DNA of 24,905 nucleotides from a virus, in the IMG/VR virus record IMGVR_UViG_3300041409_000594, positions 1 to 24,905 of that record, one strand, 5' to 3'. The notes beneath the pieces were generated by a model that saw only the letters and a program-made list of their open reading frames with translations, had not been told where the DNA came from and did not search any database. Of the stretch, positions 1,327 through 15,282 are shown piece after piece. The number at the start of each line of letters is the position of its first letter. Position 1 is the stretch's first letter. A program made the translations under genes and the position numbers.

Positions 1327-1749
1327 ATGACCCCAGCTCGACGTATCGCGGCGCTTGCGCTCATTGCGCTCGCGCTTTACACCGTCCACAACGGTGGCAT
1401 CGGCGGCATCGGGCACGCGCCGGATGGGCCGCGAGGCATCGCCATCGTCCGCGAATCCAGCGAAGACACGTCGGACTTCGCCCGGATATTGATCGGTCTG
1501 CGGTCGGGCGACTCCGACAAGTATCTGCGCGAACACAAGCATCAACTTGTCGTGTTCGACAAGGATGATTCCGACGAAAACGGCAATCGTGTTCCTGAGC
1601 TGAAGGCGATGGAACCCGTGCTGAAAGACGTCGAGCAGCCGGCGCTTGTGGTGACCGAGCTGTCGAGCGGCAAGGTGTTGCACGCAGGCAAATGTCCGAC
1701 GACGTCTCCGGCCGCGGTGCTCGACGTCGTGAAAGGCACGGGTGGCTGA
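1327..1749 (+). CDS. Exported or membrane-anchored protein, possibly thioredoxin-fold
   Basis: The product is 140 residues. Residues 4-19 (ARRIAALALIALALYT) are a signal peptide or signal anchor, so the rest lies outside the cytoplasm. The segment QPALVVTELSSGKVLHAGK followed by a C-terminal helix resembles the strand-strand-helix end of a thioredoxin fold (a Pro before the strand, then GKVL..G). No CxxC motif is present, so redox activity is not supported. The stop overlaps the ATG of the next gene (TGATG at 1747-1751), so translation is coupled to the papain-like peptidase. That coupling suggests the two exported or periplasmic functions work together, which is inference. Confidence 0.65.
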   Translation: MTPARRIAALALIALALYTVHNGGIGGIGHAPDGPRGIAIVRESSEDTSDFARILIGLRSGDSDKYLREHKHQLVVFDKDDSDENGNRVPELKAMEPVLKDVEQPALVVTELSSGKVLHAGKCPTTSPAAVLDVVKGTGG

Positions 1750-2558
1750 TGAGCCTCGACTTCGATACACAGTTCCTCGACACGGATTTCAGGAAGTGGC
1801 CGCAGTTCGTTTTCGGCATGCATCCTGAACGACCTGCCTCGCTGAATCTGTTCAAGCGATACAGTGCGGCCACGCCCGTAATGTCGCGCGAGCAGGTGCA
1901 TGCCGCAATCGAGAAGATCGACGCCGACGGCGGCGGCGCCGAACGGCTCGTCACGCGGATTTTCAACCAAACCCAAGAAGGATCGTGCGTCGGCAATGCC
2001 ACCACGCAGCTGCTCGAGTGCGGCCAGGCGCTGCAGGTCGGCAAGGCGAACGTCATTCCGATGTCCGCGATCAGCCTCTACCAGCTGATTGCCGGCGGTC
2101 CGATGACGGGCGCCCAGGTGAGCGATGCGCTGCATGCCCTTTGCACCAAAGGCGTCATGCCGCTCGACACGCCGAAGAACCGCGAACTCTTCGGCGACCA
2201 GGTGATGCCGCACACCGGCTATTACACGAAGCGCCCTGCCGGCTGGGAGAAGACCGCGGCCTTGTTCAAGGGTCACGAGTTCCTCGTCATCCGATCGATG
2301 GACGAGATGCTGACGGCCCTTTGCCGGCAGCAACCGGTCGTCGTCGGGCGCGAGGGGCACTCGATCTTGTATCTGCGGGCGTTCTTCAAGAACGGCCGCC
2401 TCTATTTCCTTTACGTCAATTCGTGGGGTAAGTGGGGCATAGCCGCCAGCGATCTGCCCTATGGCTTCGGCGTCGACTCGGAGAGCCAGGGGCTCAAGTC
2501 CGCGCAATGGGCCTTCACCGTTCGATCGTTCGTGTTCCCCTCGCGGCGAGCTGCATGA
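1749..2558 (+). CDS. Papain-like (C1 family) cysteine peptidase 1
   Basis: The product is 269 residues. Papain-family active-site features appear in order: Gln74 (oxyanion hole) six residues before Cys80 in QTQEGSCVGNA, the same spacing as in papain; His204 in REGHSILYLR; and Asn224 in FLYVNSWGKWG, the classic NSWG..WG motif. Residues 1-70 could act as a short propeptide or substrate-binding region. No signal peptide is visible. C1 peptidases cleave peptide bonds; whether the target here is the peptidoglycan stem peptide, a virion protein or a host protein is unknown. It overlaps the preceding gene by one base and the following 36-residue membrane gene by four (ATGA), so it belongs to a coupled operon. 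A second C1 peptidase lies 2.1 kb downstream. Confidence 0.85.
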   Translation: MSLDFDTQFLDTDFRKWPQFVFGMHPERPASLNLFKRYSAATPVMSREQVHAAIEKIDADGGGAERLVTRIFNQTQEGSCVGNATTQLLECGQALQVGKANVIPMSAISLYQLIAGGPMTGAQVSDALHALCTKGVMPLDTPKNRELFGDQVMPHTGYYTKRPAGWEKTAALFKGHEFLVIRSMDEMLTALCRQQPVVVGREGHSILYLRAFFKNGRLYFLYVNSWGKWGIAASDLPYGFGVDSESQGLKSAQWAFTVRSFVFPSRRAA

Positions 2559-2665
2559 AAACGTTGATCGTCGCCGTCGTCAGTTTTGCCGCCGGCTTTA
2601 CCACGGGTGTGCTGTGGCTGCTGTACGACGCGGCCAGCTACGGAAGCCCTCAAACGACCTGGTAG
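2555..2665 (+). CDS. 36-residue membrane microprotein
   Basis: The ATG at 2555 overlaps the peptidase stop in the arrangement ATGA. The product is MKTLIVAVVSFAAGFTTGV followed by a short tail ending PQTTW: one transmembrane helix at about residues 3-24 with almost nothing else. The overlap and the clean hydrophobic pattern argue for a real gene although it is very short. Likely roles are a small holin-like, anti-holin or toxin-like peptide; the sequence alone does not decide. Confidence 0.6.
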   Translation: MKTLIVAVVSFAAGFTTGVLWLLYDAASYGSPQTTW

Positions 2666-2672
2666 GTGCCCG

Positions 2673-3212
2673 ATGCTGCGTGCAATTGCAATCGCGTTCT
2701 TCGTGATGATCGCCGCGGTCTCACAATGCAACGTCTCAGTCCTGTCGCCGCCGCCCGAGCGCCCGAAGCCTGGAGTCGTAAAACGGATCCTCGATTGGTT
2801 CAAATCGTCGCCGTCGGCGTCGTCGGGTGACGTGACGGTCAATTTGAGAGCGCCCGTGGCTCCGACGTCCGACGTCGAAACGAAGCCCGCGGCCGTCGAT
2901 GGGCTTGTCTATGATCCCTCCCGGCCCGTTCGATTCTTCTACGGTCCTAAGCCGGCTGACGTCCCTGGCCATGTCTGGCGACCGCAGGACTATCGCTTGA
3001 ACAGTTGGGTGCTCTACAAGCTGACGCCCAAGCCCTTCCAGGGCGCTGGCGACTGGTGGTATCGCGACACCGATCGCGGCCGCGAAGTCTACACGAGCTG
3101 GGGCTGGCAGCCAGGCTCGAGCCCGCCGGCCCAGCAGGCGACGCGGGGCATGAGCTCGAGCGGCTTCCAAGACGGCTATTGCGGTCGCCGGCCGCTGTTC
3201 GGAGGCTCGTGA
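2673..3212 (+). CDS. Secreted or membrane-anchored Trp/Pro-rich protein
   Basis: The product is 179 residues from the ATG at 2673. Residues 3-17 (RAIAIAFFVMIAAVS) form a signal sequence followed by QC; VSQC is only a poor lipobox because of the Gln before Cys, so lipoprotein processing is doubtful. The mature region is Pro-rich, then contains aromatic segments such as FFYGPKPADVPGHVWRPQD, AGDWWYRDTD and YTSWGWQPGS, suggesting a compact extracytoplasmic domain. No family is recognised. The stop overlaps the start of the CarF-like desaturase (TGATG), so the two are translated together. Confidence 0.65.
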   Translation: MLRAIAIAFFVMIAAVSQCNVSVLSPPPERPKPGVVKRILDWFKSSPSASSGDVTVNLRAPVAPTSDVETKPAAVDGLVYDPSRPVRFFYGPKPADVPGHVWRPQDYRLNSWVLYKLTPKPFQGAGDWWYRDTDRGREVYTSWGWQPGSSPPAQQATRGMSSSGFQDGYCGRRPLFGGS

Positions 3213-3664
3213 TGGCCACCATTGGCACCGCGGTGCTATTCGCTTACATCGCCGCTGATGCGCTGTCAGCCCTCTACCATCTTTTCACCGATCGCGGCTG
3301 GAACATCTCCAGTCAGCGATCGTTTTTCGAGAACCACCACCGTCGACCGTGGACCATGACCTTCGATCTGCAGCCGCTCGCTGTGGGTCTGCCGATCGCA
3401 ACGTTTGGTTATCTCTTCGAATCTTGGTTCTTGTTGTTGCTCGGCATGTTCCTTTCGGTCGCGCAGTTGCCGCACTACTGGGCCCACTTTCCCGCCCCAT
3501 GGCCAGTCCGAGTATTGCAGCTCGCCCGCATCATCCTTCCACCCGCAAAGCACGCTTCCCATCACCAGGGCGATTTTGATCGAGACTTTTGTGTGCTTTC
3601 GGGCTGGAACAACTTCTGGATCAACTGGTTCGCGTCGTTCGTGCCCCAAAGGAAGCTTGCATGA
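3212..3664 (+). CDS. CarF/TMEM189-like lipid (plasmanylethanolamine) desaturase
   Basis: The product is a 150-residue integral membrane protein. It has exactly eight histidines, all in the motif positions of the TMEM189/CarF (PEDS1, Pfam Lipid_desat) family: His23 in DALSALYHLFTDRGW, His42-43 in ENHHRRP, His88 and His92 in LPHYWAH, and His114, His117-118 in ILPPAKHASHH. The tail FCVLSGWNN matches the family's FC..tGW.N. In characterised members these histidines bind a di-iron centre that desaturates the ether-linked chain of plasmanylethanolamine to make the vinyl ether of plasmalogens. Hydrophobic segments lie at residues 5-22 and 55-86. The protein is shorter than CarF or human TMEM189, mainly at the N-terminus. 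A strong GGAGG precedes the ATG. The substrate is unproven; another lipid desaturation is possible. Confidence 0.82.
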   Translation: MATIGTAVLFAYIAADALSALYHLFTDRGWNISSQRSFFENHHRRPWTMTFDLQPLAVGLPIATFGYLFESWFLLLLGMFLSVAQLPHYWAHFPAPWPVRVLQLARIILPPAKHASHHQGDFDRDFCVLSGWNNFWINWFASFVPQRKLA

Positions 3665-3688
3665 CGGACAGTTGTTCGGAGGCCCGTG

Positions 3689-4222
3689 ATGGCTGACATT
3701 CGTGCCGTCTTCTTTGACTGGAATGGCACCTGCTCGGACTTGCGTGCGATGACGCCGCAAATGCGACAGCGCTTCGATCTGCGCGGCAACTATGTCGCCA
3801 TGCACCGCCGGCTCGATTGGGAGGTCGTGAGTGCGTTGGTCGAGGCTAGGCCGTGGTTGGACGTTGACTGTCTGAAGCGATGGGAAACGACAACCGTCTG
3901 TCTGACGAACTGCTCGCGACGAATGATCGAGCGGATGGGCATCGACGAGTTGTTCACGGTCATCCACAGCAGCGACGATTCGCTCTGTTACAAGCCCGAC
4001 CGCCGGATGTATTTGGACGCCGCGTATCGCCTCGGTCTGTCGCCTGTCGAATGCCTGATGGTCGCGGCACACAACTTCGACCTGAACGCTGCGGCCTCGC
4101 TTGGAATGCACACCGCTTTCGTTCAACGGCCCGGCGAGGATGAGAAGGCAGACGGGCATGCGACGATCGAGACCTTCAAAGAACTGCCTGCGTTCGCCGG
4201 CTTCGAGGTCCGTGATGACTGA
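3689..4222 (+). CDS. HAD-superfamily hydrolase (haloacid dehalogenase-like)
   Basis: The product is 177 residues with the four HAD motifs: motif I FFDWNGTCSD (nucleophile Asp10, Thr14; the usual second Asp is Asn12), motif II CLTNCS, motif III Lys in CYKPDRRMY, and motif IV in MVAAHNFDLNAAASLGMHT followed by AFVQRPGE. The VAAH..DL.AA..lG..TAFV.RP.E pattern is typical of type II haloacid dehalogenase-like proteins, whose nucleophile Asp attacks the substrate; many relatives act on phosphoesters. Asn in place of the second motif I Asp removes the usual phosphatase acid/base, though DWNGT is also common in annotated phosphatases. The CGGAGG ribosome-binding site lies 24 bases after the desaturase gene and repeats its initiation region nearly base for base. 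The cytoplasmic substrate is unknown. Confidence 0.8.
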   Translation: MADIRAVFFDWNGTCSDLRAMTPQMRQRFDLRGNYVAMHRRLDWEVVSALVEARPWLDVDCLKRWETTTVCLTNCSRRMIERMGIDELFTVIHSSDDSLCYKPDRRMYLDAAYRLGLSPVECLMVAAHNFDLNAAASLGMHTAFVQRPGEDEKADGHATIETFKELPAFAGFEVRDD

Positions 4223-4469
4223 GACACCAGACACCAAGTCCGCGGGCTCGCAACGCTTTGCCCTGTGCCAGGCGGACCTGAAGAAGGTCGGCAAGGGTGC
4301 GATCGCCACGACGTCGACGGCGATGCTCACCTACGCCGCCAACGCCATGACGGCCGAGGGGGCTGGCTGCTGGACGATCGCGTTCGCTGTCGGGGTGATG
4401 GCGTTCGGTCACGTCTTAGCCTTGTTCTGCAGCGACACCAACGCAACCCAGCAACCGCCGAGCGTGTGA
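4215..4469 (+). CDS. Small holin-like membrane protein
   Basis: The product is 84 residues from the ATG at 4215, overlapping the HAD gene end by eight bases. A charged N-terminus (residues 1-26) is followed by a moderately hydrophobic segment at about 28-47 and a strong one at 52-72 (CWTIAFAVGVMAFGHVLAL), then a short polar tail. Two spans in a protein of this size next to another small membrane gene and a peptidase fit a holin, which would permeabilise the inner membrane at lysis. This rests on topology and position, not on a sequence motif. Confidence 0.6.
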   Translation: MTETPDTKSAGSQRFALCQADLKKVGKGAIATTSTAMLTYAANAMTAEGAGCWTIAFAVGVMAFGHVLALFCSDTNATQQPPSV

Positions 4470-4678
4470 TGGCCGAGTTGATTAATAATATCGCGGACCT
4501 GTTCACGATCATCGGCGGCGTGGGTGGCTTGCTGCTGATCTTCATGCGACTCGGCGGCATGCGGACCGACCTTCGCTCGACGTTGTCGAAACTGCGCAGG
4601 ACCGATCGCCGTCACGACGAGTGGCTGCGAGATCACGAACTCCGCATCACTACGATCGAGCGACGAGACTCTACCTGA
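4469..4678 (+). CDS. Small membrane protein with coiled-coil tail, holin/XhlA-like
   Basis: The product is 69 residues; its ATG overlaps the preceding stop (TGATG at 4467-4471). Residues 8-28 (IADLFTIIGGVGGLLLIFMRL) form one transmembrane helix. The C-terminal 40 residues are highly charged and helical (LRSTLSKLRRTDRRHDEWL), likely a short coiled coil. This one-span plus charged-helix plan recalls haemolysin XhlA-like and class III holin accessory proteins, although XhlA usually has the helix first. It lies eight bases before the second papain-like peptidase, so a holin, accessory and peptidase lysis cassette is a reasonable inference. Confidence 0.6.
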   Translation: MAELINNIADLFTIIGGVGGLLLIFMRLGGMRTDLRSTLSKLRRTDRRHDEWLRDHELRITTIERRDST

Positions 4679-4685
4679 GGACGCT

Positions 4686-5486
4686 ATGAAACGCACCTAT
4701 GGCTGGCTTCGTCAGCCTCACGATGACCGCGACCTACGTTACGTCGTACCGACTCGGCTGACGGCCGTGTTGCCGACGTCGATCGACCTTGCCCCGCACA
4801 TGGGTCCGCAGCTCGATCAGCAGGACCTGGGGGCGTGCGGTCCAAATACGGCCGACGAGTGCATCGAGTTCGATCAGGCGGCCGAAGGTGAGCCGATCGT
4901 CAGCGCGTCGCGGCTGTTCATCTATTACGCCACTCGCATGTTGATGGGCACGGTTGGCGAGGACAGCGGCGTCGACAATCGAACGCTGCTGAAGGCGCTC
5001 AACAAATACGGCTTTTGCGCTGAATCCCTCTGGCCGTACGTAACATCGAAGTTCACCGTCAAACCCCCGAAAGCGTGCTTCACCGCGGCACTCAAGAATT
5101 GCATCCGCAATTACGCGGCAGTCGCCCAGACCCATTCGCAGATGTGTGGCACGCTGACCACCGGTCGACCATTCGTGTTCGGGTTCGATTGCTTTGCAGC
5201 CCTCGAGTCCGACTCCGTCGCGGCGACGGGCATCCTGCCGACGCCCCGCGCGGGCCAGACGCCGATCGGCGGTCATGACGTGACGATCTGCGGCTTCACG
5301 ACGATCGATCGCCCGGGCATCAAGAAGGGCAACAAGTGGCCGAAGAATACGTACCGAGCCCGAAATCACTGGGTGCTCGACGACGGAACGCCCCATGGTG
5401 ACGGTGGCTATCTCTACGTTCCGTTTGCGTACGCGGAGAACGCGAAGTACGCGAGCGATTTCTGGGTCGTGAACGCGATTCCGTAG
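4686..5486 (+). CDS. Papain-like (C1 family) cysteine peptidase 2
   Basis: The product is 266 residues. It opens with YGWLRQPHDDRDLRY, a start common in bacterial C1 peptidases. Gln45 lies six residues before Cys51 in LDQQDLGACGPN, His197 is in GGHDVTICGF, and the Asn is most likely Asn227 in ARNHWVLDDG, followed by HGDGGY. The usual NSWG..WGd.GY is therefore altered to NHWV with a longer connector. Several extra Cys (residues 59, 111, 131, 139, 154 and others) could form disulphides. No signal peptide is seen, so export would need a holin. AGGACGCT precedes the ATG. Its place directly after two small membrane genes makes it the best endolysin candidate in the window; a virion or host-directed protease is the alternative. 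Confidence 0.85.
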   Translation: MKRTYGWLRQPHDDRDLRYVVPTRLTAVLPTSIDLAPHMGPQLDQQDLGACGPNTADECIEFDQAAEGEPIVSASRLFIYYATRMLMGTVGEDSGVDNRTLLKALNKYGFCAESLWPYVTSKFTVKPPKACFTAALKNCIRNYAAVAQTHSQMCGTLTTGRPFVFGFDCFAALESDSVAATGILPTPRAGQTPIGGHDVTICGFTTIDRPGIKKGNKWPKNTYRARNHWVLDDGTPHGDGGYLYVPFAYAENAKYASDFWVVNAIP

Positions 5487-5496
5487 CTCAAAAGTC

Positions 5497-5530
5497 GGGC
5501 GGCCGCCAAGCGCGAACTCGGCGACCGCCC
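5497..5530 (+). terminator. GC-rich hairpin closing the accessory block
   Basis: Eleven bases after the peptidase stop, GGGCGGCCGCC (5497-5507) pairs with GGCGACCGCCC (5520-5530): ten base pairs with one mismatch around a 12-base loop. No T-run follows (TAAACACG), so it is not a classical intrinsic terminator. It may act as a Rho-dependent pause, an mRNA 3'-end stabiliser or a weak terminator. The only sizeable intergenic gap nearby lies here, which supports a transcription-unit boundary. Confidence 0.4.
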
Positions 5531-5589
5531 TAAACACGACGAGGTAACAGACCCCTCGCCACGTCTAGGCAACCCTAGGTCATGGCGAA

Positions 5590-6402
5590 ATGGACAAGCA
5601 CGAAACCCCGGCCCAAATCCGCGACCGGATACGAGGCCTTCGCCGCGTTCGGCCCTCCGAACTTCGGCGCAATCCGCAAGCCTGGAAGAAACACACCCCG
5701 CGACAACGCAAGGCGCTGAAGGACGTGATGACCGAGATCGGCTTCGCCGATGCCCTCCTGGCCCGCGAACTTGAAGACGGCTCGCTCGAGCTGATCGACG
5801 GCGAACTGCGCGCCGGCATCGCGGATGACCAGGTTGTGCCCGTCATCGTTCTGGATGTCGCCGCGCCCGCGGGCCCGCAGATGCTGCAGTTCGCGCTCGT
5901 GCTCTCGAAGCTGGGCATCTGGCGTCAGACGCTCGTCTGGGTCAAAGACGCATTCGTGCTCGGGCGGAGCGATTATCACTACCGCCACGAGGTTGTGTTC
6001 GCCGGTGCGATCACGGCCGACGACGTCGACGGCAAGTCGCACGAGCTGGTCCTCTATGGCTGGCGGCCCGGGGCGAAGCACACCGCGCCCGAAGACCGCA
6101 CCTGGTCGACCGTGCTCGAGTACGCCAGGCCCAAGGCCAATCGCCTGCATCCCACCATGAAGCCGGTCGACCTGTGGGGCGACCTCATGCGCAACGGCAG
6201 CATCGCCGGCGACATCGTGCTCGATTTGTTCGGCGGCGCCGGCGTCACGGCCATCGTGGCTGAGCAGCTCGGCCGACGTGCACGCCTGGTCGAACTCGAT
6301 CCGCGGTTCTGCGATGTGATCGTGCAGCGCTGGCAAACGCTCACGGGCCTGGAGGCCGTACGCGAATCGGACGGCGTCGCGTTCGACGAGGTGTCGGCAT
6401 GA
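5590..6402 (+). CDS. ParB-like domain fused to a truncated N4/N6 DNA methylase
   Basis: The product is 270 residues. Residues 18-92 are a ParB/sulfiredoxin-like domain (RPSELRRNP, LELIDGELRAGIA, VVPVIVLDV). From about residue 99 it reads like the second half of a phage ParB-methylase: GIWRQTLVWVKDAFVLGRSDYHYRHE, LYGWRPGAKH, HPTMKPVDLW (187-196), then the AdoMet-binding DLFGGAGVT (212-220) and the acidic ELDPRFCD (235-242). The segment normally between these halves, with the catalytic DPPY (motif IV), is absent, and about 18 extra residues separate two HE-x-V-x-x-G copies (residues 133-158). It could bind DNA or AdoMet but probably cannot methylate alone. It overlaps the small terminase start, suggesting a packaging or DNA-marking role. 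Confidence 0.75.
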   Translation: MDKHETPAQIRDRIRGLRRVRPSELRRNPQAWKKHTPRQRKALKDVMTEIGFADALLARELEDGSLELIDGELRAGIADDQVVPVIVLDVAAPAGPQMLQFALVLSKLGIWRQTLVWVKDAFVLGRSDYHYRHEVVFAGAITADDVDGKSHELVLYGWRPGAKHTAPEDRTWSTVLEYARPKANRLHPTMKPVDLWGDLMRNGSIAGDIVLDLFGGAGVTAIVAEQLGRRARLVELDPRFCDVIVQRWQTLTGLEAVRESDGVAFDEVSA

Positions 6403-6740
6403 AACCCACGCCTAAATGCCCAAGAAACCTCGATGCATGCGGCCGTAGGACCTGGCGAAGGCTTTGTTCGCAACTCGTCGAAGAAGGCACGGTCGACGAG
6501 ATCGACAAGCTGCAGCTGGTCATGGTCTGCCAGCTCTGGAGCAGGCTGATCAAGGCCGAAGCGGGCATCGCGCAGTTTGGATCGATCATCGCGACGCGAC
6601 AGTCGCCAATCCCGAAGCGCAGCCCTTATGTCGCGGTCGCGAATGAGTGCGTGCGGCAATTGAGTCCCCTGCTGGCAAGGCTGCGACCGAGCACGCGTTC
6701 ACCGCGCCGGCCGAGTCCGGCGAAAACAAACAGGAGTTGA
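6399..6740 (+). CDS. Phage terminase small subunit (P27 family-like)
   Basis: The product is 113 residues. It follows the plan of the P27/Phage_terminase_4 family: an N-terminal LDACGRRTWRRLCSQLVEEG, then TVDEIDKLQLVMVCQLWSRL and helix IKAEAGIAQFGSII, an NP-like region replaced by SPYVAVANECVRQLSPLLARL, and a C-terminal RPSTRSPRR that corresponds to the family's LGLTPssR ending. Small terminases bind the viral packaging site and hand the DNA to the large subunit. Its ATG overlaps the methylase stop (ATGA). The large subunit lies 1.2 kb downstream, separated by an unusual extra gene. Confidence 0.75.
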   Translation: MKPTPKCPRNLDACGRRTWRRLCSQLVEEGTVDEIDKLQLVMVCQLWSRLIKAEAGIAQFGSIIATRQSPIPKRSPYVAVANECVRQLSPLLARLRPSTRSPRRPSPAKTNRS

Positions 6741-6747
6741 AGGCGAC

Positions 6748-7851
6748 ATGGCCAACACGATCTTTCATCTCGCCTTCAGCGCCTCAGCCGCTTCCGACGG
6801 CGGTGGTGTTCGCGTCCGCTGCGGGCTGCAGAGTGTTGAGCTTCGGCCATCACTCAGCAACGCGGCGAACAAGGCCCTGCTAGAGTCGCTCACGGGCATC
6901 GGCAGCGGTAACGTCGACCTGACCGGCGACTGGGTCAACGGCGGCGGGCACGGGCTCGACATCACGCTCAAGGGCGACTTCGCCAACAGCAACGCGCCGC
7001 TGCTCGGGTTCGAGAGCACGCTGGGGGCAACGAGCGTATCGCTGACGCGCGGCACGACTTCGGTCTGGTATCAGTTCCCAGCCGCTTCGATGGGGATGCC
7101 GTTCACCGAAAACTCGGTATTCGTTGACGAAAGCGCGCCTGACGCAGGCGATGGCACGCCTGAGAATCTTACTTGCATCATTCCGAAGATCACGACGCCG
7201 GGCGCTACGTTCATCATCAGCAACGGTTCGGGCGCCACCGACCCATTGACGTTTGCGGCGCACAATGCCGGGGCGATGGAAGCGGCCGGCATCACAGCGA
7301 TGCTGGGTAACTGGTCGACCGGTGGCGTCGTCGACAACGGCAACGGCACATTGACGGTTACGCTCGAGTACAACGCGGTGTTGGATTCAACACTCGGTGT
7401 TGGTGGCTTTGTAGCACCCGATCAGCAGAGTTCGCCGGGCGAGATCGAATGCAACCTGCTCACGCTCACTGTCATCAACGCGACCAGCGGCAGCGGTTCG
7501 CTGTACGACGCGGGCAACAACATCGGCCTGACGTTCGCCGATGACGTCACGCCGAGCGATCTAGGGCAGGCCATGATTGACGCCAGCTTCACGGCCTTGC
7601 CTGTCAACAGCGATCTATCGACCGTGTCCGTCGTCGGAACTACGCGACGCAGGACGTTCAGCATCCCGGTTGCGGCCTCGCTCACGGCCGGCCTACTGCC
7701 TGTCGCTGCGCTCAACAGCCTGGACGGCGGCAGCACGATCAACGCCACGGCCAGCGTGAGCCAGGTCGGCAGCATCGCCACGCTTTCGCCATCAACGCCC
7801 GCCGTGCTGGGTGGTGGCAACAATGACTACTGGCGCAGTGGAAGGCCGTGA
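6748..7851 (+). CDS. Unrecognised beta-rich phage protein between terminase genes
   Basis: The product is 367 residues with AGGAG and GAAGG upstream of the ATG. Composition is low in Lys and rich in Gly, Ser, Thr, Asn and Ala, with alternating beta-strand-like segments such as TLTVTLEYNAVLDSTLG and FSIPVAASLTAGLLPVAAL; there are no membrane spans or signal peptide. Such composition is common in virion surface, decoration and fibre proteins. The C-terminus ends GGGNNDYWRSGRP. No family is recognised. It sits where the terminase subunits are usually adjacent, so it is probably a lineage-specific structural insertion. A role in packaging is also possible but unsupported by motifs. Confidence 0.7.
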   Translation: MANTIFHLAFSASAASDGGGVRVRCGLQSVELRPSLSNAANKALLESLTGIGSGNVDLTGDWVNGGGHGLDITLKGDFANSNAPLLGFESTLGATSVSLTRGTTSVWYQFPAASMGMPFTENSVFVDESAPDAGDGTPENLTCIIPKITTPGATFIISNGSGATDPLTFAAHNAGAMEAAGITAMLGNWSTGGVVDNGNGTLTVTLEYNAVLDSTLGVGGFVAPDQQSSPGEIECNLLTLTVINATSGSGSLYDAGNNIGLTFADDVTPSDLGQAMIDASFTALPVNSDLSTVSVVGTTRRRTFSIPVAASLTAGLLPVAALNSLDGGSTINATASVSQVGSIATLSPSTPAVLGGGNNDYWRSGRP

Positions 7852-7888
7852 TCTTATTTCATGGGTCCTTCCGGGCCTTTCCAGCGAA

Positions 7889-7904
7889 CGCCGTTTCAAC
7901 GGCG
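7889..7904 (+). terminator. Short hairpin before the large terminase
   Basis: CGCCGT and ACGGCG pair perfectly around TTCA in the 100-base gap between the unrecognised gene and the large terminase. There is no T-run after it. It may be a weak terminator or an mRNA-processing hairpin that separates expression of the two genes; the function is not established by sequence. Confidence 0.3.
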
Positions 7905-7952
7905 GGCATTCGGCTCTGACACACAGTCCGTCCGTCCATTAGGACAAGAGAG

Positions 7953-10046
7953 TTGGTGATTGAAGGGGCAAGCGACGACGATCGGCGGCGCGACGCCGAT
8001 CGCAAGCGACAGAGCCGGCTCAAAGCCAAGCTCGTCGTCATTCCGAAATGCGCGAATCGCGCGCGCCGCAAGCGACTCGAGCGCGACGATATCGCTTGGC
8101 TCATGCACTACTTCGGTGCAGCCTCCGCGGTCCGGGATCCGTTCACGCGACCGTTCACCGAACAGCAACGCGAAATGATTACGGCCATCCGTAACGCCAT
8201 CATGACCGGCGGCGACCAGGCGATCGCCGCCACCCGCGGCGAAGGCAAGTCGACTCTGTTCGAACGCATGCTAATTAAGTACACGCTGACGGGCGTGCTC
8301 ACGTTCAGTGTGCTGTTTCAGGCGTCGGGCGGTCTGGCGGAGAACTCGCTCGACTCGATCAAGACGGCGTTCGAAGAGAACCCCCTGCTGCTGGAGGATT
8401 ATCCTGAAGTCTGCGTCCCGGTTGTCGCTCTCGATAACACGCCTCAGCGGGCACACACCCAGGTCGTGTCGGGGAATCGGCATGACAACGGCAAGCCCTT
8501 CAAGCCGGTCAGCAGCCGCTTCAAGTGGTGTGGCAAAGAGATCATCCTGCCGGACGTGCCAGGTTCGCCGTCGGCCGGAGCGATCATCGCCGCCCGCGGC
8601 CTCGACGGCGCCGTCCGCGGTCTGAAGAAAAAAGGCAAGCGCCCCCAGGTTGCCGGCATTGATGATCCCGACACCGAGGAGAGCGCGCGCAGCGAGGCCC
8701 AGGCGAAGAAGCTCGACGCTCGAATCGAGAAGGCCATCGGTGGGCTCGGCGGTCAGCAGCGTGGCATCGCACGAGTGATGCTCACAACGATTCAGAGCCG
8801 CACGTCCGTTTCGTATCGCTTCACCGACCCCACGCAGAAACCCAGCTGGCGCGGGAAACGGTTTCGCTTTCTCGTTCATCCACCCGAGCGGACGGACCTT
8901 TGGGAGGAGTATGTCGCGCTCCGCCGCGCGGACTGGATCAATGATCTCGACGGCAAGTCGACAACTCACGCGCACGACTTCTACGTGCAGAACCGCGAAG
9001 CGATGGACGCAGGGGCGGTCGTTGCGAATGCCTACCGGATGCTCGAAGGCGAATTGTCCCCGCTGCAGCACTATTACAACGAAGTCGCGCGGAAAGGGCC
9101 CGAGGCGGTTGCCACCGAGTACGACAACGACCCGCCCGTGGAAGCCGGGCCGATCGAGTCGGGCATCACCCCCCATCGCATTCAACGCCAGGTCAGCGGC
9201 TACGACCGTCTGATCGTTCCGCCAGGTTGCACGGTGCTGACTCAGGGCATCGACGTCCGCAAGACCGCGCTGCACTGGGTCGTCCGCGCCTGGCAGCCCG
9301 GCGCCACTGGATTCACGATCGACAAAGGTGTGCACGAAGTTCGCGGTACTAAGTACGGCAGCGACGAGGGCGTCGAGACCGCGATCTACAACGCGATCCT
9401 CGAGCGGATCGAAGCGTCGAAGCAAACGGATTACCTCACTGCGGGCGGCGAGGTCCTGTCGATCAATCGCGCGCTCGTCGACGCGGGCTGGAAGACAGAC
9501 GCGGTTTATGCCGCCTGCATCGCCGCTGGCCTCGGTGTCATGCCGGTCATGGGGTTCGGCAAGTCGGCTGGCTGCGTGGAAGCGAGCTTCAGTGACGTGC
9601 AACGACGCACGAAGGATCGCAAGCCAGGCGACGGCTGGTTCCTTTCGCGAAAAGGCAACTTGTGGCTCGTCTGCGCGGACGCCGATCGCTGGAAAGCTTG
9701 GGAGCACGAGCGCTGGATGACGTCGCCCGGCAAGCCGGGCTGCATGCAAATCTACGGCGTCGGCAGCGGCATCGACCGCATGAGCGACGACGAGAAGTCG
9801 CACCACGCCTACGCGCGGCATATCTGCAACGAGATCGAGGTTGAAGAACCGCACAACGGTGCGATGCGGCGACGGTTCAAGGCCAAGAGCGACAACACTC
9901 ACTGGCTCGATGCGAGCTACTACTGCGATGTCGCCGCCAACATGGAGGGCATCCGCCTGCAGGCCTCGTCCGCGACGGCCGCCGCCGACGCTAAGCCGCC
10001 AGAAGCGACGAGTCAGGGATGGTTCGCCCAGCAGAAAAAGAGATGA
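7953..10046 (+). CDS. Phage terminase large subunit (lambda gpA type)
   Basis: The product is 697 residues. It is the packaging motor: an ATPase that pumps DNA into the prohead and a nuclease that cuts concatemers. Walker A is ATRGEGKST (93-101), Walker B the acidic pair in VAGIDDPDTEE (237-238). The C-terminal nuclease region shows LTQGIDVRKTALHWVVRAW and later NRALVDAGWKTDAVYAAC, matching the metal-binding Asp positions of GpA nucleases. Length matches the 600-700 of the family. The start is uncertain: TTG at 7953 or GTG at 7956, both behind AGGACAAGAG. A very basic N-terminus (residues 8-45) could bind the small subunit. The stop overlaps the next gene (ATGA). Confidence 0.92.
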   Translation: MVIEGASDDDRRRDADRKRQSRLKAKLVVIPKCANRARRKRLERDDIAWLMHYFGAASAVRDPFTRPFTEQQREMITAIRNAIMTGGDQAIAATRGEGKSTLFERMLIKYTLTGVLTFSVLFQASGGLAENSLDSIKTAFEENPLLLEDYPEVCVPVVALDNTPQRAHTQVVSGNRHDNGKPFKPVSSRFKWCGKEIILPDVPGSPSAGAIIAARGLDGAVRGLKKKGKRPQVAGIDDPDTEESARSEAQAKKLDARIEKAIGGLGGQQRGIARVMLTTIQSRTSVSYRFTDPTQKPSWRGKRFRFLVHPPERTDLWEEYVALRRADWINDLDGKSTTHAHDFYVQNREAMDAGAVVANAYRMLEGELSPLQHYYNEVARKGPEAVATEYDNDPPVEAGPIESGITPHRIQRQVSGYDRLIVPPGCTVLTQGIDVRKTALHWVVRAWQPGATGFTIDKGVHEVRGTKYGSDEGVETAIYNAILERIEASKQTDYLTAGGEVLSINRALVDAGWKTDAVYAACIAAGLGVMPVMGFGKSAGCVEASFSDVQRRTKDRKPGDGWFLSRKGNLWLVCADADRWKAWEHERWMTSPGKPGCMQIYGVGSGIDRMSDDEKSHHAYARHICNEIEVEEPHNGAMRRRFKAKSDNTHWLDASYYCDVAANMEGIRLQASSATAAADAKPPEATSQGWFAQQKKR

Positions 10047-11333: not shown

Positions 11334-12941
11334 GTGGGCATCACGTCGACCGTCCTTTCGGCCATCGATCGCTTGACCGGCGCGGACCGCCGCGCGCGTC
11401 GTCGCGTCGTCGAGCAGGTCGCGTCGAGCCCCAGCATCAGCCAGCGGCGTGCCGAATCCATCGCTGCACGCCTCGGCGAAGAGATTCCCGAAAGCCATCG
11501 ACGTTGGGAGAGCGCGAAGACAACTCGCCTGAATCACGGCCACTGGGCGAACGTCAATGGCCAGCCGATCAATGCCGAGCTATCGGGCTGGCTGAACGAC
11601 CTGCGCCATCGGAGCGAGTACGAAGTCGCGAACAACTCGCTCGTCGAAGGCATGATTCAGACTTACCAGCTCTGCGTTGTCGGCAGCAACGGCCCTCACC
11701 TGAGCGTGCTCAGCAGCGATAAGAAATACGCGGCGCAGCGGCAAGCCCTGTGGGAAAACTGGGCCCAGTCGCCGGCAACCAATCAGCAGCTCTCGCTCGT
11801 CGAGATCCTCGACCACTGGATTCGCTCGTGCTTCTCGAGCGGTGAGTTTTTCGACCAGATGGTCACAGTCCGCGACGTTACGGGGCCCGTGAAGATGCGG
11901 CTGCTGCCCATCCACAGCCGGCGCCTGATGACTCCACCGCAGTTCCTCGGTCGCCCGGACGTGGCGATGGGCGTCAGGCGTGACCTCGAGTTCCGTCGGC
12001 CGCTCGCCTACTTCATCTCTCAGCCGTACGTGATGGGATCGTTCGAGCTCTACACCGGCGAGTTCAAGGAAATCCCCTACGCCGATGCCCTGCACGGGTT
12101 TCGCATGATCGAAGAGGACCAGGTGCGTGGCGTGCCCTGGCTCGCGTCGTGCTTGGATCCGATCGCCGAATTGCGCGACTTCAAGATTGAGACGCTCGAT
12201 GCCGCACGCGCCGCCGCCGACCAGGCGGTGCTGCTGTACACGGAGCATGTCGACGCGCCGTTCATCCAGACGAACGAAAACGTTCGCATCGAGCGCCGTA
12301 CACAACGCAACCTTCCCCCCGGCTGGCGGGCCGAAATGGTTTCGCCCGCGCATCCCGGTCCGCAGTACGACAGCTTCTACGAGTCGCTGGCGCGTGAAAT
12401 CGGCGGTCCGATCTGCATGCCGCTGATGATGCTGCTGCTCGATTCAAGCAGCCACAACTACAGCTCTGCCCGATTTGACGGCCAGCTCTATTGGCGTGGC
12501 GTCGCGAAAACACAGGGCTGGCTCGGTCGCGTTCTCACGCGCATCGAATCGGCCGTGGCACGCGAAGCCGAACTCGCCGGCGAACTGCCGCCTCCGCCGA
12601 AGGACATGCGGCGCCGCTTCAATTGGCCGTCGGCACCGCACGTCGACCCCACGAAGGAACGCACCGCCGACCGGATGGGCCTGGAGAACGGTGACCTCAC
12701 CTACAGCGAGCTGTGTGCCGCCAGTGGCCGCCTTCGCGACGAAGTGATCGCCGAGCGCAAGGCCGACAACGAAGCACTGATCGCAGCGGGTTTGCCGCCC
12801 ATCCCAGGCATTGAAACGGGCAACGGCCAGCAGGTCGCCGCGGCGGCGTACGCCCACGACGACGAAGACGACCAGCCCAAGGGCAATCGTAAGAAGGCCG
12901 ACGCTGCTCGCATGTACGGGAGGGGCGTCAGTGTCAATTAA
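11334..12941 (+). CDS. Phage portal protein (lambda gpB type)
   Basis: The product is 535 residues from the GTG at 11334, directly after the previous stop. It matches the lambda portal family (Phage_portal_2): LRHRSEYEVANNSLVEGMI, the region around WIRSCFSSGEFFDQMV, LLPIHSRRLMTP, the IPYADALHGFRMIEEDQVRG and VPWLASCLDPIAELRDFK core helices, and DSSSHNYSSARFDGQLYWRG near the C-terminal domain. Twelve copies form the ring through which DNA enters the head and to which the tail joins. The C-terminal 35 residues are Asp/Lys-rich and flexible. The last eleven bases overlap the start of the capsid polyprotein. Confidence 0.92.
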   Translation: MGITSTVLSAIDRLTGADRRARRRVVEQVASSPSISQRRAESIAARLGEEIPESHRRWESAKTTRLNHGHWANVNGQPINAELSGWLNDLRHRSEYEVANNSLVEGMIQTYQLCVVGSNGPHLSVLSSDKKYAAQRQALWENWAQSPATNQQLSLVEILDHWIRSCFSSGEFFDQMVTVRDVTGPVKMRLLPIHSRRLMTPPQFLGRPDVAMGVRRDLEFRRPLAYFISQPYVMGSFELYTGEFKEIPYADALHGFRMIEEDQVRGVPWLASCLDPIAELRDFKIETLDAARAAADQAVLLYTEHVDAPFIQTNENVRIERRTQRNLPPGWRAEMVSPAHPGPQYDSFYESLAREIGGPICMPLMMLLLDSSSHNYSSARFDGQLYWRGVAKTQGWLGRVLTRIESAVAREAELAGELPPPPKDMRRRFNWPSAPHVDPTKERTADRMGLENGDLTYSELCAASGRLRDEVIAERKADNEALIAAGLPPIPGIETGNGQQVAAAAYAHDDEDDQPKGNRKKADAARMYGRGVSVN

Positions 12942-15282
12942 GCGCACCAGGCAAGAGCGCCACCGCGAACGCGAGATGTACCGCAAGTCGGCCGGCGTGC
13001 TGCATTGCCGGAGCATCGAACTCGCGCCCGACAGTTGGGACGACGAAACACGAACGGTTCGCGCGGTGTTTGCAACCGACGTCCCGGCCGTGTCGATCGA
13101 CTCCCGCACGGGCGAGGGCGTGCTCGAAGTCTGGCACATGGACGGCGCGGAATACGACGATCGCGCGCCGCTGTGCGACACCCACAACCGCTCCACCGTG
13201 AAAGCCGTCCTGGGCTCGATCTTGCCCGAGGGCGTCGAAGATCGCGAGGGCGGCGGCCGGCAGCTCGTCGGTCGCATCCAAATCTCGGAAGCCGAGCCGA
13301 AGATCGCGACGAAAGTTCGCGAGGGGCACATCCGCTCGGTCTCGGGCGGTGTGCAGACCCTCGAGTGCGAAATCGTGCCCAAGGGCCAGACCCGCAGCAT
13401 CAAGGGCGCGTCGTTCACCGCCCCCTCAGACCGTGACTTGTCCGTCGTCACTCGTTGGCGACTGCGTGAAGTTTCACTTGTACCCATCGGCGCTGATCCC
13501 AACGCCAAAATCCGTAGCGAAGGAACCACCATGAAAGCCTCGACTCGCAAGTACCTGCAAAGCCTCGGCCTGCGTTCGGACGCCACCGACGACCAGGCCA
13601 TCAAGTTCCTCGAGGCCTTGCCGGCCGAAACCCGCGCGCTCGCCGAGCGTGCCGAGGAGGGCGAGACCGAGGAGCAGCGCAAAAAGCGCGAGGACGCCGA
13701 AAAGGAAAAGGACAAGGAAAAGAAGGCCCGCGCCGAGGCCGACGAGAAGGAAGAGGCCGAGCGGAAGAAGCGCGAGGAAGAAGACAAGGGCGGCGAGCGC
13801 AAGAAGTCGGCTCCGGTGACCGAATCGGTCCGGGCCGAGATCGCCGCCACCGAACGCAAGCGTGTGGCCGAAATCCGCCGCCTCGGCGATGGGCAGTCCG
13901 ACGAGACGGTCCGCAAGGCGATCGAGGAGGACTGGACCGTCGAACGTGCATCGCGCGCGTTCCTCGAAACGATCCGCGATCGCACCGACCCCGCAGGCCC
14001 GGCAATCCACAGCCGCGGCCACGACAAGGACTGCACCGCCGCGGCGATGGGCATGGGCCTGGCGCTTCGCAATTGCGACGGAGAGAAGCTCCTGAAGTAC
14101 GGCGCCAGCTATGCGCCGGCCAAGGGCCAACCAGGCGGCATCGGCAGCGAATACCGGCTGCGACGTGCCGTCGATCGCGACACCTTCCGGAAGACCCTCG
14201 AGCGGATGCTCAACGATGGCGACCAATACCAGTCCATGTCGCTGCACGACATCTGCCGCGAAGCCTGCCGTCTCGACGGCAAGCCGGTGTCGCTACACCT
14301 GAGCGTCGAGGAGACGTTCCGTACCGCGATGAGCGGCTCGGCGCTGGCGAACATCTTCACGACGAACATCAACGCCGAGTTTCTGACCGGCTACATGGAC
14401 TACAGCGACAGCACCGTGGGCTGGGTCAGCGAGTCCGACAAGAACAACTTCCTGACGAACGAAGTTGCCACGATGGGCAAGTTCGGCCGGCTCAAGAAGG
14501 CTACCAGAGGCCGTCCCGCCGAGCACCTCGACACGAGTGACTCGAAGGAAAGCTACAAGCTCGTCCGCTATGCCGGCCAGTTCGTCGTCGACGAGCAGAG
14601 CATCATCGACGACCGCTTCGGCGCGATCGAGGCGGAAAGCCCTCGCGACATGGGTCTCACGGCCGCCCAGCTGCGTCCGAACCTGGTTTACGGGATCGTG
14701 CTCGAGAACGGCGTGCTCGACGTCGATGGCGTCGCTCTATTCGACAGCGCCACGCACGCCAACTACGCCGCCGGCGCCTCGGGCGCGGGTGGGCCGCTGG
14801 CTGTCGATTCGCTGCAGGCCGCCATCGTCGCGATGGGCAAGCAGCGCATCGGCGGGCGCGTGCTGAACATCAAGCCACGGTTCCTGATCGTTCCGCAGGA
14901 TGCGAAGTTCGACGCGGGCATTTTGCTCAAGTCGGCCGAGCGCGTCATCGCGTCGGCCAGCGGCGGTACTTACAACCCGCTGAAGGAACTCGAGATCAAC
15001 CTCGTCGTCGACGACCGCGTCGGCGTCGGTGGAGTGATCGACCCACGGACCGACGCCGCTCGCGTCGGCACGGCCACCAATTTCTTCCTCGCCGCCCGTC
15101 CGGGCGAAGAGGGTGCGAAGACGATCGAGGTCGGCTACCGCCGCGGCACCGGGCGTGCGCCGGTCATTCGCTCGTTCATCCTCGACAAGGGCCAGTGGGG
15201 CATGGGCTGGGACATCAACATGGACATCGGCGCCAAGGCGCTCGACTTCCGCGCGATGTACAAGGCCAAGGGCGCGGCGTAA
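12931..15282 (+). CDS. Prohead protease-scaffold-major capsid fusion protein
   Basis: The product is 783 residues. I chose the GTG at 12931, which overlaps the portal stop and follows GGGAGGGG; the frame is open further upstream only within the portal gene. Residues 16-190 are an S78-like (HK97-type) prohead serine protease: His85 in CDTHNRS and Ser138 in HIRSVSGGVQ are the likely catalytic pair, ending in LREVSLVPIGADPNAKI. Residues 240-292 are a highly charged Glu/Lys coiled coil like scaffold delta-domains. From about 330 the sequence is a major capsid protein of the gpT-like class (TTNINAEFLTGYMDYSD, LNIKPRFLIVPQDAKF, GQWGMGWDINMDIGAKALDFRA). Fused protease-capsid proteins are a known phage arrangement; the protease presumably frees the capsid subunit during maturation. 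Confidence 0.9.
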   Translation: MSIKRTRQERHREREMYRKSAGVLHCRSIELAPDSWDDETRTVRAVFATDVPAVSIDSRTGEGVLEVWHMDGAEYDDRAPLCDTHNRSTVKAVLGSILPEGVEDREGGGRQLVGRIQISEAEPKIATKVREGHIRSVSGGVQTLECEIVPKGQTRSIKGASFTAPSDRDLSVVTRWRLREVSLVPIGADPNAKIRSEGTTMKASTRKYLQSLGLRSDATDDQAIKFLEALPAETRALAERAEEGETEEQRKKREDAEKEKDKEKKARAEADEKEEAERKKREEEDKGGERKKSAPVTESVRAEIAATERKRVAEIRRLGDGQSDETVRKAIEEDWTVERASRAFLETIRDRTDPAGPAIHSRGHDKDCTAAAMGMGLALRNCDGEKLLKYGASYAPAKGQPGGIGSEYRLRRAVDRDTFRKTLERMLNDGDQYQSMSLHDICREACRLDGKPVSLHLSVEETFRTAMSGSALANIFTTNINAEFLTGYMDYSDSTVGWVSESDKNNFLTNEVATMGKFGRLKKATRGRPAEHLDTSDSKESYKLVRYAGQFVVDEQSIIDDRFGAIEAESPRDMGLTAAQLRPNLVYGIVLENGVLDVDGVALFDSATHANYAAGASGAGGPLAVDSLQAAIVAMGKQRIGGRVLNIKPRFLIVPQDAKFDAGILLKSAERVIASASGGTYNPLKELEINLVVDDRVGVGGVIDPRTDAARVGTATNFFLAARPGEEGAKTIEVGYRRGTGRAPVIRSFILDKGQWGMGWDINMDIGAKALDFRAMYKAKGAA
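13531..15282 (+). CDS. Nested scaffold-capsid product from an internal start
   Basis: An in-frame ATG at 13531 (codon 201 of the fusion) is preceded by GAAGGAACCACC, a good ribosome-binding site at normal spacing; the AGGAACC core is shared with the leaders of the genes at 15355 and 18019. Initiation here would yield a 583-residue scaffold plus capsid protein without the protease, as lambda Nu3 is made from inside gene C. The start falls at the end of the protease domain. Whether it is used is inference; it would explain how many capsid copies are made per protease. Confidence 0.5.
   Translation: MKASTRKYLQSLGLRSDATDDQAIKFLEALPAETRALAERAEEGETEEQRKKREDAEKEKDKEKKARAEADEKEEAERKKREEEDKGGERKKSAPVTESVRAEIAATERKRVAEIRRLGDGQSDETVRKAIEEDWTVERASRAFLETIRDRTDPAGPAIHSRGHDKDCTAAAMGMGLALRNCDGEKLLKYGASYAPAKGQPGGIGSEYRLRRAVDRDTFRKTLERMLNDGDQYQSMSLHDICREACRLDGKPVSLHLSVEETFRTAMSGSALANIFTTNINAEFLTGYMDYSDSTVGWVSESDKNNFLTNEVATMGKFGRLKKATRGRPAEHLDTSDSKESYKLVRYAGQFVVDEQSIIDDRFGAIEAESPRDMGLTAAQLRPNLVYGIVLENGVLDVDGVALFDSATHANYAAGASGAGGPLAVDSLQAAIVAMGKQRIGGRVLNIKPRFLIVPQDAKFDAGILLKSAERVIASASGGTYNPLKELEINLVVDDRVGVGGVIDPRTDAARVGTATNFFLAARPGEEGAKTIEVGYRRGTGRAPVIRSFILDKGQWGMGWDINMDIGAKALDFRAMYKAKGAA

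Follow-up and report, generated by a model that had tools for sequence, protein, structure and literature searches.

A compact phage-encoded protein of the PF10520 lipid desaturase family that lacks the ninth histidine of plasmalogen-forming enzymes

The window analysed here is an entire IMG/VR virus record of 24,905 bases that encodes a small membrane protein of the Pfam family PF10520 among the hallmark genes of a phage (Table 1). Downstream on the same strand as the desaturase gene are genes for a methylase, for both subunits of the terminase and for portal, capsid and head-tail joining proteins; the desaturase gene precedes that of the large terminase subunit by ~4.3 kb. The phage residence proposed in an earlier note on this DNA is borne out by the terminase, portal and capsid genes of the same record. 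Relatives of the window terminase were found only in other viral contigs, and its identity to annotated phages is only ~24-29%. A tRNA search of the window gave none, and no electron donor gene was recognised within it.

Table 1. Features of the window and of related viral contigs and phages (coordinates refer to the sequence named in the first column).
Sequence	Position	Strand	Feature	Evidence or remark
Window	1692..2558	+	Papain-like cysteine-peptidase-like protein	C, GH and NSWG..WG motifs; PHROG 'peptidase', E 3.9e-5
Window	2586..3212	+	Single-hydrophobic-helix protein with a Pro/Lys-rich segment	Directly upstream of desaturase; likely start near 2673
Window	3210..3214	+	TGATG stop/start overlap, upstream ORF to desaturase	Read directly; preceded by GGAGG
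Window	3212..3664	+	PF10520 (Lipid_desat) membrane lipid desaturase	150 aa; Pfam match
Window	3686..4222	+	HAD-superfamily hydrolase	PF13419, E 3.6e-10
Window	4215..4469	+	Small hydrophobic protein	Translation; no family match
Window	4470..4678	+	Small membrane protein with charged tail	Translation
Window	4686..5486	+	Second papain-like protein	Weak PHROG 'peptidase' match, E 0.006
Window	5590..6402	+	DNA methylase	PF01555, E 8e-15
Window	6399..6740	+	Terminase small subunit	PF05119, E 4e-13
Window	7953..10046	+	Terminase large subunit (GpA type)	PF20454, E 3e-20
Window	11334..12941	+	Portal protein	PF05136, E 1e-44
Window	12811..15282	+	Major capsid protein	PF25209, E 1e-26
L004, clade member, 77 kb contig	7069-7968		Papain-like protein	
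L006, clade member, 54 kb contig	6004-6462		Desaturase	
L021, clade member, 74 kb contig	9124-9954		Papain-like protein	
L022, clade member, 43 kb contig	4020-5030		Papain-like protein	
L077, clade member, 46 kb contig	5420-5998		Secreted protein of a different family	Cys/His/Asn pattern; directly upstream of desaturase
L002, huge phage LR756511.1	4983-5441		PF10520 protein, 152 aa	31-31.9% identity; ninth His kept
L005, isolated Erythrobacter phage vB_EliS-L02	2337-2873		8-His PF10520 gene, protein UIS25202.1	Hypothetical protein between PhoH and portal

Translation confirmed the open reading frame, its coordinates and its length as given in the earlier note, and the tight coupling described there is seen in the overlap of the desaturase ATG with the TGA of the upstream frame. 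Near-identical copies of TGTTCGGAGGCYCGTGATGG are found just before position 3212 (the desaturase gene) and just before position 3689 (the HAD gene), a repeat that perhaps arose by duplication of the start region. Small single-helix proteins surround the desaturase and its neighbours, and look-alikes of the protein encoded directly upstream, judged by eye, flank the desaturase in three related phage contigs (L004, L021 and L022). The first papain-like protein of the window gave a sub-threshold match to Pfam Peptidase_C1 (E 0.17), and its homologue adjoins the desaturase in L004 (pairwise E 1e-8). The papain-like assignment is based on the motifs and on the weak PHROG hit, because it found no support in a poor structural model (pLDDT 44.6) or in a fold search where cathepsins were prominent at non-significant scores.

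The desaturase frame is beyond doubt a real gene of the PF10520 family. The HMM check proposed in the earlier note gave 58.7 bits (E = 9.8e-16) over residues 13-138, the curated cut-off being 26.4 bits, and the eight histidines of the family are present as HH, HxxxH, HxxHH and a lone His. They occupy the positions noted before (His23, 42, 43, 88, 92, 114, 117 and 118), with no further histidine in the protein, and the predicted FC..sGW.N tail reads FCVLSGWNN. The protein is, as the earlier note suggested, a compact core of 150 residues, and this core begins at residue 1. D27 and F39 are the equivalents of D100 and F118 of mouse PEDS1, the non-histidine residues most needed in that enzyme, and are retained in all five members tested of the phage clade described below. 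These residues are not specific to PEDS1, because FAD4 conserves both (PMC8960569). No PHROG family matched the desaturase or the clade proteins, and a sequence search of the PDB with the desaturase gave no match.

Homologues in other phages, which the earlier note suggested looking for, were found, including one in an isolated complete phage. They came from alignment-led scans of viral contigs; single-protein scans of viral contigs (P0001; the huge-phage protein) returned no relatives, so alignments were needed. Five further phage relatives, 41-49% identical to the window protein, form with it a clade of six phages, in five of which all eight histidines are kept. The clade has a conserved signature of its own, consisting of YHxxxDxG, FD at positions 51-52, SGWN and short loops. 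In the L006 protein, Arg replaces the last His of HxxHH, and this enzyme may be inactive or altered. Genes for cysteine-peptidase-like proteins are found near the desaturase in five of the six members, with none in L006. Two of the contigs have other genes of note: L021 encodes a phage GroES-like co-chaperonin (6879-7253; PF00166, E 1.9e-14) three genes upstream of the desaturase, and L077 has a CsrA-like frame on the minus strand (4181-4402), recognised by eye from its translation.

Outside this clade, the family was found in the huge phage LR756511.1 and in the Erythrobacter phage vB_EliS-L02, whose published description makes no mention of 'desaturase' or 'lipid' (PMC9127768). Phage copies 74% identical to the vB_EliS-L02 protein are present in L009-L012, and L007 holds another, more distant one. 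Occurrence in six phage contigs, an isolated phage and a huge phage, together with an accessory distribution among relatives, agrees with the auxiliary gene envisaged in the earlier note. The desaturase region is considered accessory because the terminase relatives lack it: the gene is absent from the sequence examined of L049-L056, five of which lack the papain-like gene as well (by papain profile or tblastn), the other three being without the desaturase.

Enzymes of the CarF/TMEM189 type (PEDS1; NF045946, EC 1.14.19.77) share with the window protein the PF10520 family, the eight histidines, the D100/F118 equivalents and the HxxxH and HxxHH motifs. The earlier note took the eight histidines to identify a plasmanylethanolamine desaturase, which was an overstatement, since they mark the whole PF10520 family: PEDS1, CarF, FAD4 and alphaproteobacterial homologues all possess them, and each of the eight is essential (PMC9131029, PMC8960569). 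Plant and alphaproteobacterial homologues cannot replace CarF. PEDS1 and CarF are set apart from FAD4 and from these bacterial homologues by a ninth histidine (CarF H113, mouse H131), essential in CarF and, in the myxobacterial assay, in human TMEM189, and the loss of which strongly cuts the activity of the mouse enzyme (PMC9131029, PMC8960569). This residue is missing from the window protein, as already follows from the remark in the note that there are no other histidines. Mouse H131 lies 13 residues after F118, and the residue 13 positions after F39 of the window protein is Asp52; Asp occupies this position in all six clade members. Fourteen 9-His proteins of Planctomycetota and Acidobacteriota have FREHHVDPxAITRHDF or similar in the surrounding region, with His at this position; the window protein has FENHHRRPWTMTFDLQ. 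A gapped alignment alternatively places a ten-residue deletion at this site, and the histidine is missing either way.

The histidine spacings had been described as matching TMEM189 and CarF, which holds inside the motifs (HH, HxxxH, HxxHH) but not between them. The distances H23-H42/H43-H88/H88-H92/H92-H114/H114-H117 are 19/45/4/22/3 in the window protein. The corresponding values are 25/62-64/4/23/3 for the fourteen cellular proteins with nine histidines, and 25/53/4/25/3 is typical of cellular proteins in the 8-His clade. The inter-motif loops of the window protein are 6 and ~17 residues shorter than in the 9-His proteins. The published mouse positions agree, as H96 and F118 are 22 residues apart (PMC8960569) and their equivalents H23 and F39 only 16. 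In addition, the CarF/TMEM189 enzymes have an N-terminal extension with an extra helix that is absent from the window protein, and in place of the four transmembrane helices of PEDS1/CarF, hydropathy and the structural model of the window protein indicate one long helix and a hairpin. The score against the NCBIfam CarF equivalog NF045946 is 40.7 bits, whereas the cut-off is 500.

Other members of the family resemble the window protein in different ways. FAD4, the plant chloroplast phosphatidylglycerol delta-3-trans desaturase, is also a PF10520 protein with eight histidines and no ninth (PMC9131029), whereas its substrate is plastidial and, according to published descriptions, its ninth position is usually Arg rather than Asp. 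Eight histidines without a ninth are likewise found in the vB_EliS-L02 protein and in bacterial proteins from Verrucomicrobiota, Acidobacteriota, Planctomycetota and Bacteroidota (L013-L018), but these have Asn or Leu at the F39 site and longer loops (25/53) and belong to a separate clade. The LR756511.1 protein is phage-borne, of about 150 aa and devoid of an N-terminal extension, as is the window protein, but it keeps the ninth histidine, and its scores are 138 bits for PF10520 and 90.5 bits for the CarF model. As a candidate plasmalogen enzyme of a phage it is, judged by sequence, more convincing than the window protein.

The AlphaFold model of the window protein (pLDDT 85.6, pTM 0.79) places the eight histidines in or just after the long helix, in an amphipathic helix and in the stretch after the hairpin, an order consistent with location on one side of the membrane. 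They would cluster at a metal site, a possibility raised in the earlier note. Foldseek comparison of the model with the PDB gave no significant match, and the sole significant viral fold match was the Harvfovirus 'Lipid desaturase domain-containing' protein A0A3G5A308 (E 2e-5, TM 0.76), a protein of 220 aa from a giant virus of eukaryotes.

Among everything searched, the clade was found only in phages: no members were detected in ~930 sampled bacterial genomes of four phyla, and a pattern scan (A2) of 84,980 species genomes returned no relative. A genome-contig scan with A3 gave seven cellular relatives. The best cellular scorers against the phage model (L059 and L060) were of the usual 9-His and 8-His kinds and were ruled out as cellular clade members. 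Proteins of the 9-His PEDS1 type are encoded in many Planctomycetota and one Acidobacteriota genome (L023, L025-L028, L030-L037, L043; for example FREHHVDPREITRHDF), which suggests that plasmalogen synthesis may be possible in these phyla. The Planctomycetota genome G171 (L047, 4592-5473) encodes a divergent PF10520 protein whose first His motifs are separated by a long insert.

In the tree, which covers five clade members (L077 was found later and left out), the phage clade forms one branch (support 99/99 at first and 100/99 later) whose stem is long, at ~1.5 changes per site; the branch of a Legionella plasmid copy was too long to place. The Planctomycetota and Acidobacteriota 9-His proteins stand in for CarF and TMEM189 in the tree tests. 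Forcing the clade within the 9-His group was rejected (AU p = 0.002; p = 0.023 when near-9-His relatives are included); placing it together with the LR756511.1 protein beside the 9-His group (p = 0.45) or grouping it with the 8-His proteins (p = 0.15) was not. Uniting the clade with the Erythrobacter-type phage copies in one group was rejected (p = 0.0016), so phages have gained the PF10520 family at least twice. The vB_EliS-L02 and LR756511.1 copies are, as far as their sequences tell, independently acquired.

The explanation that we favour, and regard as fairly probable, is that the gene encodes a minimal PF10520 di-iron enzyme that is integral to the membrane, an acyl-lipid desaturase acting late in infection. 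Expressed late from an operon adjoining the terminase genes, such an enzyme would hold two irons with its eight cytosolic-side histidines and, using O2 and electrons from a host carrier, would abstract two hydrogens from a phospholipid acyl chain in the host membrane. The reaction would be acyl-chain desaturation as in FAD4 rather than vinyl-ether formation, and the altered bilayer could aid virion assembly, lysis or the stress tolerance of the infected cell. The plasmalogen synthesis expected in the earlier note is not supported, given the absence of the ninth histidine, the low equivalog score and the rejection of a strict 9-His clade. That the protein is a true plasmanylethanolamine desaturase of the CarF/PEDS1 type, making plasmalogens in the host membrane, thus appears quite improbable. 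This reading can draw on the common family and eight histidines, on the Phe at position 39, as in PEDS1-type proteins (mostly Asn in the 8-His cellular clade), on the weak NF045946 match and on the tree with the LR756511.1 protein beside the 9-His clade, which was not rejected, but it conflicts with the Asp52 equivalent in every clade member, the missing N-terminal helix and a score far below the equivalog cut-off. Another oxidative chemistry, acting on a lipid or its precursor by hydroxylation or a different C-H oxidation, would suit a deep, divergent clade with its own signature, short loops and Asp at a position where PEDS1 needs His, and the LR756511.1 protein weakly matches FA_hydroxylase, below its cut-off; we consider it unlikely, as the characterised PF10520 enzymes named in PMC8960569 are all desaturases.

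The neighbourhood bears on the further possibility, compatible with any chemistry, that the gene belongs to an envelope-remodelling or lysis module with its cysteine-peptidase-like and single-helix neighbours and is not a metabolic gene. Papain-like homologues lie nearby in the window, L004, L021 and L022, L077 has the secreted protein of another family, several small membrane proteins and the terminase genes are close, and the papain-like gene is likewise missing, in the sequence examined, from terminase relatives that have no desaturase. However, the genomes are few, the association fails in L006, the peptidase assignment is weak, and a position near the terminase is also usual for morons, and such a module therefore seems rather doubtful. 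Equally tentative is a broader proposal in which PF10520 proteins with Asp for the ninth histidine, cysteine-peptidase-like proteins and small membrane proteins would constitute a mobile envelope-remodelling cassette, spread among phages with unlike terminases and performing a lipid oxidation not yet known from cells. Capture of a host gene at a contig end or prophage boundary could be suspected from the left 5 kb, which contains no hallmark phage gene, but we reject it as highly improbable in view of the phage genes on the same strand of the record and of a clade found only in phage contigs, with no member in the ~930 sampled bacterial genomes or in the pattern scan of 84,980 species genomes.

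Phage lipid desaturases are already known. Fatty-acid desaturases from Arctic brine and Lake Baikal viruses, and the cyanophage ones cited there, share the idea of altering host membranes, but the former belong to the stearoyl-CoA/acyl-CoA family and not to PF10520 (PMC7300359, PMC7678222); of the eleven papers returned by a full-text literature search for PF10520, none concerned phages by title. The present results show that at least two phage lineages also took up the family of plasmalogen and chloroplast-lipid desaturases. The results also point to a trap in annotation, since eight histidines alone do not make a plasmalogen enzyme. One of these lineages has pared the protein to a 150-residue core, which could be useful for structural studies of this family, for which no structure has been solved. 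The desaturase probably rewires the host membrane during infection, and the copy in a cultured Erythrobacter phage makes a role of such lipid enzymes in infection testable now.
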